Below are positions 5,769-9,098 of a stretch of 9,098 bases of DNA, piece by piece (position 1 is the stretch's first letter; every line of letters begins with the position of its first letter). The translations under genes and the position numbers were made by a program. The DNA comes from a bacterium. Its GTDB lineage: Bacteria; Thermosulfidibacterota; Thermosulfidibacteria; Thermosulfidibacterales; JALWSI01. The notes beneath the pieces are model-generated. The model did not search any database, had not been told where the DNA came from, and saw only the letters and a program-made list of their open reading frames with translations. The stretch covers positions 1-9,098 of the forward strand of contig JALWSI010000022.1 in assembly GCA_027080315.1 (NCBI GenBank), written 5' to 3'.

Positions 5769-7019
5769 ATAGACTGGGTTCCACTTTTAGCGGTTCTGCT
5801 CATACTGCTTGAGGGGTTCTTCTCGGGTACCGAGATGGCCCTCATCTCGTGCAGCCCCATCAGACTCAAGAGGCTTGCAGAAGAGGGGAAGGGGAGGGCT
5901 GCGTATAGGTTTGTGGAGGATCCAGACACCCTCTTTGGAACCACCTTGCTGGGAACGAATCTGTGCGTGGTGCTTAACTCCTCTTTGATCACCTGGTATC
6001 TTCACTCTCGCTTTCACTTTGGCTCTGAGCTCTACACCACTTTGATACTCTCTCCCCTTGTGCTTCTCTTCGGAGAGATGCTTCCCAAGGCCTATGCCCA
6101 GGCCCACGCCGAAAGGGTTAGCCTTGCCATGGCGCCTCCTCTAAGGGTCTTTTCCAAGATCTTCTCCCCTGTGAGCAGCGTTATTCTCTTTGCCGCCAGG
6201 CTTCTGTCTCCTGGAAATGGGGACGAGAAGAGGGAGAGCCTTCTGGTGAAGAAGGATGAGCTGAGAATCCTGCTTGATCGCCACTTTGAGGGCAGCGACA
6301 TACTTGAGGAAGAGAAAGAGCTCATCAAGAACATCTTCTCTTTTGGAGAGGTGAGGGTGAGGGAGGCCATGAAGCCTCTAATAGAGGTTGTGGCTCTAAG
6401 CGAGGATGACACCGTTTCAAAGGCTGCAAGGCTAATCCAAGAAAGGGGGTTTTCCCGCCTTCCCGTATATTCTGGCAATATCTTTAGAATCATAGGCATA
6501 GTTTCGGTTTACGACATTATGGAGGCAGAAGACGGAAACCTCAAGGTGAGAGAGTTTCTTAGAAACACCTTGTTCGTGTCTGAGTTCACCTATGTTGATG
6601 AGCTTTTGAGGCGAATGCAGATGGAGAAACAGGTTATGGCCGTTGTGGTGAACGAACACGGGGCATGCGTGGGTATCATCACTATTGAGGACATACTTGA
6701 GGAGCTTGTGGGGGAGATAGAGGACGAGTACGACCTATCCCTATCAAGGGGGGAAAAGAGGATTGAGAAGGTGAAGGGCGGATACGTGGTAGATGCCCGA
6801 ATAGAGCTTGATCTACTTGAGGAGAAGCTGGGGCTGAAGTTTGAGAAGAGGGACGTTTATGAGACCTTGGCGGGACACATCTTGTTCCACACGGGGTTTA
6901 TCCCAGAAGAGGGATCAAGGATAACCTTGGACGGCGTCACCATGTACATTCAGGAGACAACCGAGAGAAGTGTGAGAAAGGTGTTCATTCCTGAGATGTC
7001 TTGCTCAGTTAAGCTGTGA
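5769..7019 (+). CDS. CNNM/CorC-type transmembrane protein with CBS domains (predicted ATA start)
   Basis: Domains in order (numbering from the ATA) are a DUF21/CNNM membrane domain (about 1-145), a CBS pair (about 190-312) and a C-terminal CorC_HlyC domain (about 325-410). Clear motifs are LLILLEGFFSGTEMAL in helix 1, LLGTNLCVVLNSS, the FGEMLPK motif, and EHGACVGIITIEDILEELVGEI at the end of the second CBS. Family members are linked to Mg2+ or divalent cation efflux, or appear as TlyC/HlyC-like proteins. Length would be 416 residues. The first usable ATG is at 5835, but starting there removes helix 1 and its conserved EGFFSGTE segment. The frame upstream is open only to a TGA at 5760-5762 and holds no ATG, GTG or TTG. 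AGGGAGG at 5752-5758 sits ten bases before ATA at 5769, giving (M)DWVPLLAVLL. I place the start there, with moderate certainty. The stop is 14 bases before hemL. Confidence 0.85.
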   Translation: MDWVPLLAVLLILLEGFFSGTEMALISCSPIRLKRLAEEGKGRAAYRFVEDPDTLFGTTLLGTNLCVVLNSSLITWYLHSRFHFGSELYTTLILSPLVLLFGEMLPKAYAQAHAERVSLAMAPPLRVFSKIFSPVSSVILFAARLLSPGNGDEKRESLLVKKDELRILLDRHFEGSDILEEEKELIKNIFSFGEVRVREAMKPLIEVVALSEDDTVSKAARLIQERGFSRLPVYSGNIFRIIGIVSVYDIMEAEDGNLKVREFLRNTLFVSEFTYVDELLRRMQMEKQVMAVVVNEHGACVGIITIEDILEELVGEIEDEYDLSLSRGEKRIEKVKGGYVVDARIELDLLEEKLGLKFEKRDVYETLAGHILFHTGFIPEEGSRITLDGVTMYIQETTERSVRKVFIPEMSCSVKL

Positions 7020-7033
7020 ATGGGGAGGAAGCT

Positions 7034-8335
7034 ATGAGGTTAAGCAGATCGCAAGAGATTTACAAAGAGGCCCTTACCTGGCTGCCGGGGGGAGTGAATA
7101 GCCCCGTTAGGGCCTTCAAATCCGTGGGCGGCTCACCGGTGGTTATGGCCAAGGGCAAGGGCCCCCGGATCTGGGATGCAGATGGAAACAGCTACATTGA
7201 TTATGTTGCCTCTTGGGGGCCCCTTATTCTGGGACACGCCCATCCAGAGGTGGTTGAGGCTGTGTGTGTGGCGGCTGAGAAGGGTACCAGCTTTGGAGCC
7301 CTCACCGATATGGAGGTGAAGATGGCCAAACAGGTGGTTGATGCCGTGCCCTCAATGGAGATGGTGAGATTCGTGAACTCGGGAACAGAGGCCACCATGA
7401 GCGCCATAAGGCTTGCCCGGGGGGTTACCGGCCGCAGCAAGATCGTGAAGTTTGAAGGGTGTTACCACGGGCACGTTGATTATCTATTGGCAAAAGCAGG
7501 CTCGGGGGTGCTCACCTTTGCCCTGCCGGGGACCCCGGGAGTGCCAGAGAGCTTCACTGCAGAGACCCTTATTGCGAGGTTCAACGACCTGAGCAGCGTG
7601 GAGGAGCTGTTTGATAAAAATAGAGACCAGATTGCCGCGGTGATTCTTGAGCCAATCATGTGCAATGCCGGGGTGATTTTGCCTGAACCTGGTTTCTTGG
7701 AGGGATTGAGAGAGATCACCAAAAAGAATAACGCCCTGCTCATCTTTGACGAGGTGATAACCGGCTTCAGGGTTGCCTACGGAGGGGCCCAGGAGCTCTA
7801 CGGTATAACCCCCGACCTCACCTGTTTGGGCAAGATTATCGGGGGGGGGCTTCCTGTGGGGGCCTACGGAGGCAGAAGAGACCTCATGGAGCAGGTGGCC
7901 CCAGTGGGAGATGTTTACCAGGCAGGCACCCTCTCTGGTAATCCCTTGGCCATGGCTGCTGGCTCAAAGACCCTTGAGATCCTGGCAAGGCCGGGAACAT
8001 ACCAGCGGCTTGAAGAACTCGGGGCCAAGGCAGAGGTTTCAATAAAGGGAGTTTTGGACGAGCATGGCGTTAAGGCCACCCTTAACAGAGTGGGCTCGGT
8101 GATGTGTCTATTCTTCACCCATAGTCCTGTTAAGAGCTACCAGGATGCCTTAACCTCCAATACAGACCTTTACGCCGCCTATTTCTGGAAGATGCTTGAA
8201 AACGGGGTGTATCTTGCTCCTTCTCAGTTTGAAGCGGCCTTCATTTCGTGTGTCCACGGAGACCAGGAGCTGGAGGAGACCGTAAGGGCAATTGAGAGGT
8301 CCATTGAGGCCCTAAAGAAGGATAACCTCTTGTAG
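7034..8335 (+). CDS. hemL: Glutamate-1-semialdehyde 2,1-aminomutase
   Basis: HemL is a PLP enzyme that converts glutamate-1-semialdehyde to 5-aminolevulinate, the last C5-pathway step feeding haem, sirohaem and cobalamin synthesis. The 433 residues match the family from end to end: LPGGVNSPVRAF, DYVASWGPLILGH, MVRFVNSGTEATMSAIRLARG, KFEGCYHGHVD, FDEVITGFRV with the PLP-binding Asp239, and LTCLGKIIGGGLPVGAYGG with Lys267 as the PLP lysine. LAPSQFEAAFIS is near the end. The ATG at 7034 has GGGGAGG five bases upstream (7022-7028) and gives the usual N-terminus. A GTG at 7016 that overlaps the preceding stop would add six residues and has no good Shine-Dalgarno. The segment after the strand preceding FDEVITG reads EPIMCNAGV rather than the commoner EPVAGNMGV, a small deviation. 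It is probably co-transcribed with glyQ and the CNNM gene. Confidence 0.96.
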   Translation: MRLSRSQEIYKEALTWLPGGVNSPVRAFKSVGGSPVVMAKGKGPRIWDADGNSYIDYVASWGPLILGHAHPEVVEAVCVAAEKGTSFGALTDMEVKMAKQVVDAVPSMEMVRFVNSGTEATMSAIRLARGVTGRSKIVKFEGCYHGHVDYLLAKAGSGVLTFALPGTPGVPESFTAETLIARFNDLSSVEELFDKNRDQIAAVILEPIMCNAGVILPEPGFLEGLREITKKNNALLIFDEVITGFRVAYGGAQELYGITPDLTCLGKIIGGGLPVGAYGGRRDLMEQVAPVGDVYQAGTLSGNPLAMAAGSKTLEILARPGTYQRLEELGAKAEVSIKGVLDEHGVKATLNRVGSVMCLFFTHSPVKSYQDALTSNTDLYAAYFWKMLENGVYLAPSQFEAAFISCVHGDQELEETVRAIERSIEALKKDNLL

Positions 8336-8376: not shown

Positions 8377-8405
8377 TTGACTGCAACACACCCCCTTGCT
8401 ACAAG
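8377..8405 (+). promoter_or_regulatory. Probable promoter of the atpZ-atpI-atpB cluster
   Basis: TTGACT (8377-8382) and TACAAG (8400-8405) are separated by 17 bases. The -35 box matches five of six positions, the -10 four of six. It lies in the 117-base gap after hemL and would give a leader of about 40 bases before the predicted atpZ start. The rest of the gap holds short GGGG/CCCC inverted repeats but no clear terminator for the upstream operon. Confidence 0.5.
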
Positions 8406-8452
8406 GAGCCCCGTTTCCAGCAGGGGATTAAGGAAGGCTTGAGGAGAGGGTA

Positions 8453-8719
8453 ATCGCAAAAGGCGGTAGATGGTTAAAAGAACTCATCAACCTCAGCTCC
8501 TTGGGTCTTACCCTGGCGATTGCAACCATGATAGGGTTTGGGTTGGGGGTCTATGTAGACCACAAGTTTCACACCAACCCATGGGGATCGTTGGGAGGGC
8601 TTCTGCTGGGTGTTGCATCGGGGTTTTACACCTTAGTGAAAGAGTCGTTGAAGGGCATGCGTAAGGCCGAGAGGGAGGATGAGAGGGCAAAGGATGGTTC
8701 TGGCGAAGATGGAGAGTAG
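8453..8719 (+). CDS. atpZ: AtpZ/AtpI-family F0F1-ATPase accessory protein (predicted ATC start)
   Basis: The product is a small two-helix membrane protein of about 88 residues: WLKELINLSSLGLTLAIATM, then IGFGLGVYVDHKF, a short turn TNPWGS, and LGGLLLGVASGFYTLVKE, followed by a charged tail rich in Lys, Glu and Asp. This is the AtpZ/AtpI-like layout (putative F0F1-ATPase subunit, Ca2+/Mg2+ transporter family) found at the head of atp operons. The only ordinary start in frame is a TTG at 8501, with no Shine-Dalgarno, and it would remove the conserved LKELINLSSLG segment. The frame runs back to a TAA at 8429-8431 without ATG, GTG or TTG. GAGGAG at 8441-8446 is six bases before ATC at 8453, giving (M)AKGGRWLKEL. 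I therefore place the start at ATC. It overlaps the start of the next gene. Confidence 0.8.
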   Translation: MAKGGRWLKELINLSSLGLTLAIATMIGFGLGVYVDHKFHTNPWGSLGGLLLGVASGFYTLVKESLKGMRKAEREDERAKDGSGEDGE

Positions 8720-9053
8720 GGGATGGATTCTGCTGGGCGTTTTTCTCGTGTTGAGTGTGGCCTGGTTGGATCCCAAGGTTACCCTGGGAGTTGCTGTGGG
8801 AGGAGTTCTTGCCCTCTGCGATTTTGGTCTTATGCGACGGTTTCTCGCTCCAGCCGTTAGAAACGGCGCTGGCAAAGGGGCTCTTTTCGTTCTGCAAGCA
8901 ATCAAGTATCTGGTGATGGGAGCGGTGTTGGGAACCCTGTTCTGGTTCAAGGTTATCAACCCCATTGCTTCGGTTGTGGGGCTTTCAATCATGTTCCTGA
9001 TACCCCTTCTTCACTTGTTTGACTTAAAACGAGAGCTTGAGGAGGTTGCCTAA
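8694..9053 (+). CDS. atpI: ATP synthase subunit I-like membrane protein
   Basis: This protein of about 119 residues has four predicted hydrophobic helices: ILLGVFLVLSVAWL, VTLGVAVGGVLALCDFGLM, FVLQAIKYLVMGAVLGTLFW and VVGLSIMFLIPLLHLF. A short acidic-basic tail follows. The layout and its position between atpZ and a probable atpB fit the ATP synthase I-chain family, which assists assembly of the c-ring and is not part of the finished enzyme. Sequence motifs are weak in this family, so the call rests mainly on topology and context. In-frame ATGs at 8679, 8694 and 8709 are possible. I chose 8694 because AGAGGG lies about six bases upstream, whereas 8679 directly abuts GGAGG. Any of them overlaps the end of atpZ, indicating coupled translation. 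Confidence 0.78.
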   Translation: MVLAKMESRGWILLGVFLVLSVAWLDPKVTLGVAVGGVLALCDFGLMRRFLAPAVRNGAGKGALFVLQAIKYLVMGAVLGTLFWFKVINPIASVVGLSIMFLIPLLHLFDLKRELEEVA

Positions 9054-9058
9054 GTCCT

Positions 9059-9098
9059 ATGTACGAACCTTATGTTATCAATCCTTTAGGTCATGGTT
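9059..9098 (+). CDS. atpB: Probable start of ATP synthase F0 subunit a, cut by window edge
   Basis: An ATG at 9059, five bases after the atpI stop, opens a frame reading MYEPYVINPLGHG to the window end. AGGAGG at 9040-9045 is 13 bases upstream, a little far. Subunit a (proton channel) normally follows atpZ-atpI in split F0 clusters. Thirteen residues are too few to identify it by sequence, so the name rests on gene order. Confidence 0.5.
   Translation, partial: MYEPYVINPLGHG

Follow-up and report, generated by a model that had tools for sequence, protein, structure and literature searches.

An atpZ gene lacking an ordinary start codon before its conserved N-terminus, and a probable programmed frameshift in its relatives

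The atpZ gene that opens the F0 cluster in the stretch of DNA analyzed here (the window, the 9,098 bases of contig C22) is a real, intact gene, and its translation very probably begins upstream of TTG 8501, its first ordinary in-frame start, because the protein segment encoded before that codon is conserved. The best in-frame candidate for the start codon is AUC 8453, to which we give about an even chance. In six of the seven relatives from the same phylum in which the gene was found, atpZ is broken mid-gene at a run of T, with the C-terminal half continuing in the −1 frame, which probably reflects programmed frameshifting. This conserved frame break is the more solid and the more surprising result compared to the AUC start.

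The atpZ frame and its N-terminal part

Window atpZ is the single match in the assembly (G000), one MAG of 1.84 Mb in 253 contigs. The frame lies downstream of hemL, opens after TAA 8429-8431 and closes at TAG 8717-8719. It matches PF09527 (ATPase_gene1/AtpZ) with an E-value of 2.3e-15 and 56.8 bits, thus passing the Pfam gathering score of 26.6, and does not reach the cut-off of NCBIfam TIGR02230 (ATPase_gene1; 18.5 bits vs 46.7). The encoded protein is 51% identical to AtpZ of the related genome G001. In the F0 cluster, atpZ directly precedes atpI, followed by atpB, and the order is the same in the relatives. The profile match, the small hydrophobic product and the position before atpI and atpB are shared with AtpZ as encoded by the additional gene in the atp operon of Bacillus pseudofirmus OF4 (PMC4453477), from which window atpZ differs in having no ordinary start at the conserved N-terminus. 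As a separate observation on the upstream gene (window 7016-7036), hemL is listed from GTG 7016, and ATG 7034 behind GGGGAGGA better fits the N-terminus of the relatives.

Read codon by codon, the frame begins TAA(8429-8431) GGA AGG CTT GAG GAG AGG GTA ATC(8453) GCA AAA GGC GGT AGA and continues TGG(8471) TTA AAA GAA CTC ATC AAC CTC AGC TCC TTG(8501), with no ATG, GTG or TTG between the TAA and TTG 8501. The first-pass annotation had described exactly this situation, and every coordinate that it gave was right. Taken alone, a run of 23 codons that contains no ordinary start is not unusual; the missing start is notable because the coding sequence upstream of 8501 is conserved. The annotation had placed the conserved LKELINLSSLG stretch ahead of TTG 8501, and several lines of evidence bear this out. 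The PF09527 match spans frame residues 19-70, so that the domain starts near 8486 and thus ahead of TTG 8501. A W-L-K-x-x-I-x-L-S-x-L-G stretch is common to AtpZ of the same order, and LS-x-x-G or near variants recur in AtpZ across other phyla. Finally, pN/pS is 0.36 for codons 8471-8500 and 0.32 for the rest of the gene, with few codons involved and the values pooled from non-independent pairs.

These observations bear directly on whether translation could start at TTG 8501, leaving the upstream segment untranslated. This codon is, as previously noted, the only ordinary in-frame start, and an automatic gene caller would pick it. However, a start at this position would cut into the Pfam domain and the conserved LSxxG, no Shine-Dalgarno (SD) sequence precedes it (energy of 0), and the codons upstream look selected as protein; accordingly, we consider initiation at TTG 8501 improbable.

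The rarity of such an arrangement was gauged by comparing 40 contigs of the assembly together with the window (235 kb) to about 630 kb of G001, using 60 pairs of orthologues that do not overlap and have a stop codon further 5' in the contig. Among these roughly 60 pairs, atpZ was the sole clear case in which a conserved part lies upstream of all ordinary starts. The remaining flags concern shadow frames, alignments overrunning the start by a few codons, and a threonyl-tRNA synthetase (L073 1-130) located at a contig edge, in which a stop sits just before conserved sequence, probably an effect of the assembly edge. Gene callers miss AUC starts by design, which makes a conserved gene with no ordinary start valuable as a test case.

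Table 1. Features of the window around atpZ and of the broken atpZ genes in related species
Feature	Position	Strand	Remarks
Probable F0-cluster promoter	8377..8405	+	TTGACT 8377-8382, 17-nt spacer, TACAAG 8400-8405
Possible leader mini-ORF TTG AGG AGA GGG TAA	8439..8453	+	stop overlaps ATC (TAATC); SD-like TAAGGA 8429-8434
GAGGAG, Shine-Dalgarno for the candidate ATC start	8441..8446	+	six bases before ATC 8453; −9.3 kcal/mol
atpZ, 88 codons	8453..8719	+	probable AUC start 8453-8455, stop TAG 8717-8719
Out-of-frame ATG, rival start	8470..8472	+	needs +1 frameshift, e.g. in AAAA 8476-8479
TTG, first ordinary in-frame start	8501..8503	+	within conserved domain; no Shine-Dalgarno
atpI	8709..9053	+	PF03899 E 3.3e-7; overlaps atpZ end; other in-frame starts 8679, 8694
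atpB start, cut by window end	9059..9098	+	from sequence; gene order as in relatives
T9 break site, CTG GCT TTT TTT TTG TAG	G003, G005, G007 (G008: TTG GCT...)		
T6A break site, CTG GCT TTT TTA TCC	G002		
T6A break site, CTG GGT TTT TTA TTA TAG	G006		
Split atpZ, six relatives	L004 1083-1310; L005; L006; L007; L008; L009	L004 +; L006, L007, L009 −	wider: L048-L053

AUC 8453 and competing starts

To our knowledge, natural AUC starts in bacteria are rare and hardly documented. Upstream of the conserved TGG 8471, ATC 8453 is the sole in-frame start codon of NCBI table 11; a second in-frame ATC, at about 8486 (CTC ATC AAC), sits within the conserved stretch. The spacing of six bases between GAGGAG and ATC 8453, also reported by the first-pass annotation, is confirmed, and the SD energy for this codon (UGAGGAG) is −9.3 kcal/mol, compared to −6.1 for TTG 8439 and −6.5 for ATG 8470, each at suitable spacing. 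The energies were computed against an assumed anti-SD tail, ACCUCCUUA, because a 16S rRNA search of the assembly found nothing; the search likewise found none in G001 or G003. An SD as good as that of ATC 8453 occurs by chance at 4.8% of the window positions and at 6% of near-cognate codons in any frame. Because about 5% of the window positions score equally well, the SD support for the AUC start is only moderate.

Window atpZ shows two features expected of genes with near-cognate starts, a strong SD at proper spacing (6 nt) and the lack of ATG, GTG and TTG before the conserved coding region. With the AUU- and AUA-start genes (infC, and cvfC1 and ccpN of S. aureus), window atpZ would share the near-cognate start, the strong SD and an expected low initiation rate (PMC13009471). 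It differs from infC, cvfC1 and ccpN in that the candidate codon is AUC rather than AUU or AUA, is not conserved in relatives, and is predicted from the sequence. AUU and AUA starts with strong SDs in S. aureus yield approximately 10-30% of AUG expression (PMC13009471), and low-rate initiation at AUC would fit these known starts.

In the comparison of orthologous start codons that had been suggested along with the ATC start, the unusual AUC is kept in none of the seven phylum-mates with atpZ. All seven have an in-frame ATG, which lies upstream of the TGG position by 11 codons in four relatives of family f2, by 8 codons in G001, and by 10-12 codons in two relatives of family f3. In a MAFFT alignment, the ATG of the four f2 relatives falls on CTT 8438 of the window, not on ATC, with no net indel up to TGG; therefore, the frame looks ancestral, with the old ATG lost and a new start used. 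The leader aligns weakly with that of the relatives, so that a one-base indel is possible. Thus, of the proposal that atpZ starts at ATC, translation from upstream and the rank of ATC as the best in-frame candidate have held up; the codon itself is not conserved and comes from a single MAG contig.

Because only one assembly is available, the possibility of a read error, of a real one-base indel or of initiation in a different frame has to be weighed. A one-base assembly or read error, or else a real recent point mutation or indel, would imply that the true or ancestral start is ordinary. The options are TTG 8439, if GGG 8448-8450 lacks one G, ATG 8470, if AAAA 8476-8479 has an extra A, and an ATG or GTG one substitution away. 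In favor of this explanation, only a single genome is at hand, TTG 8439 is closely preceded by TAAGGA and is 32 nt away from TGG, as against exactly 33 nt for the four f2 ATGs, and ATG 8470 has AAGG six bases upstream. However, short homopolymers of 3-4 bases are seldom miscalled in short-read assembly, if this MAG is one, the neighboring window genes are intact, and the alignment puts the ATG of the relatives on CTT 8438 in frame without an indel. We regard such an error or mutation as somewhat unlikely.

Another possibility is a start in a different frame, at TTG 8439 or ATG 8470, combined with a frameshift, or a stop-restart at TAATC 8451-8455. Frame breaks are common in atpZ of the phylum, and TAA 8451-8453 overlaps ATC; the mini-ORF ending on ATC could help a restart, or may be a chance occurrence. 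In relatives, GGA TGG yields the same out-of-frame ATG. However, there is no good slippery heptamer near 8439-8453, the AAAA at 8476 would require a +1 shift, and neither site is conserved, so that we consider out-of-frame initiation or restart quite unlikely.

The frame break in atpZ of related species

The phylum comparison included nine genomes; apart from the window species, atpZ was found in seven relatives and was not found in G004 (genome 71% complete). The relatives' records are MAGs (WFSL, WFSI, JALUVF, JAJSAC, QMPS and JALVZS) labelled Aquificota, Thermodesulfobacteriota or bacterium, and some of their isolate names suggest deep-sea vent samples. The break site is GGCTTTTTTTTTGTAG (T9) in four species and T6A in two, the sequences at the frame change being GGCTTTTTTTTTGTAG and GGGTTTTTTATTATAG. 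The N half ends with ...LAFFL* or a similar sequence at or soon after the T run, and the C half begins with FVGVASGFYTVFKEVFKE... The frame change coincides with a slippery sequence, T_TTT_TTT/T_TTT_TTG in the four species and T_TTT_TTA in the two, and a −1 slip on T_TTT_TTG or T_TTT_TTA yields a product that is colinear with intact AtpZ as encoded in G001 and the window. These are the two unbroken genes: G001 shares its genus with G007, and the window, where the frame break is absent, reads CTT CTG CTG GGT. The hemL (where covered), atpI, atpB and atpE genes of the relatives are all open.

Pooled over the f2 pairs, the N half has a pN/pS of 0.18 in frame 0 and the C half one of 0.15 in frame −1, compared to 0.87-4.3 for the other frames. 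To judge by these ratios, both halves are under purifying selection in the f2 family, each in its own frame. Four genomes each contain the 16-mer GGCTTTTTTTTTGTAG a single time, and runs of at least nine A or T are found only once in 619 kb of G001.

Several other explanations of the break were considered and rejected: a pseudogene, given the pN/pS of 0.15; an assembly error, given that the break recurs at one site in six MAGs of several accession series; two separate genes, given that the C half has no shared start codon; and ordinary phase variation, given that each of the four f2 copies carries exactly nine Ts and is out of frame.

The sequence comparison thus points to a programmed −1 frameshift as the probable state of atpZ in the relatives, with the slippage probably ribosomal at T6A and either ribosomal or transcriptional at T9. 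The slippery T run, the early stop in frame 0 and the conserved −1 continuation in six relatives are shared with known programmed −1 frameshift or transcriptional slippage genes, such as dnaX, IS elements and those with a site of the U_UUU_UUA type. The differences from these frameshift genes are that the gene is atpZ, that the slippery sequence is a T run rather than A_AAA_AAG, that no conserved stimulator is seen, and that window atpZ itself has no frameshift site. A search for a hairpin or other stimulator common to the frameshift sites found none; GGGGGA occurs upstream in the two f3 species only. Searches of the open-access literature yielded no account of frameshifting for atpZ or an atp operon.

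A wider screen covered 290 genomes, of which 165 had an AtpZ match. No mid-gene break outside the phylum was seen in the ten rows opened for a stop or a second match; rows G018 and G166 from outside the phylum, with one stop at the match end, were not among these ten. One Rokubacteria MAG (QHSR01000061, L043 1123-1803) shows AtpZ running into AtpI-like sequence in one 226-codon frame, possibly a gene fusion or an indel.

Putative control of AtpZ output, promoter and leader

These findings can be joined in a simple model. Under this model, window atpZ would be transcribed, probably from its own promoter just upstream, and ribosomes would initiate ahead of TTG 8501, with AUC 8453 as the likeliest codon, positioned by GAGGAG, and with fMet inserted at AUC despite the third-base mismatch. 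The outcome would be a low output of the 88-residue AtpZ, a small membrane protein encoded beside AtpI. The frame, its lack of ordinary starts, the conserved upstream segment, the SD and the alignment of the promoter are shown by the sequences; we infer that AUC is used, that output is low and that the low output is selected. As the first-pass annotation proposed, a low initiation rate at AUC might tune the ATP synthase assembly proteins. In the six sister species, the conserved −1 frameshift site would also limit full-length AtpZ. The lineage may thus keep full-length AtpZ low in two ways, the window species by a weak start and its relatives by a frameshift; the two features occur in different species, and the conserved frameshift makes tuning of AtpZ output more plausible. 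In B. pseudofirmus OF4, AtpZ has been tied to Mg2+ acquisition, and AtpI helps assembly (PMC4453477).

We put forward tentatively, as rather less than an even prospect, the broader idea that AtpZ is kept low throughout the phylum by recoding, that is, by −1 frameshifting in two families and by an AUC start in the family of the window species. If so, the T-run frameshift would give a short AtpZ in addition to the full one. We know of no earlier recoding control in an ATP synthase operon, and this phylum-wide reading would be the first. Confirmation of the frameshift would mean that AtpZ exists as two forms or is produced at a fixed ratio, and would offer a direct handle on the function of AtpZ, whose role is not settled.

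With regard to the probable promoter itself, the window elements (Table 1) are matched by conserved TTGAC(G/T) and TTAAAT at the corresponding position in the aligned relatives. A generic promoter scanner reported no promoter at the window site because it demands a terminal T in the −10 element. In the four f2 species, the conserved promoter is followed by a near-identical leader of about 36 nt without a clear SD. At the 5' end of the window leader, CCCCGTTTCCAGCAGGGG (window 8409-8426) could fold into a small hairpin.
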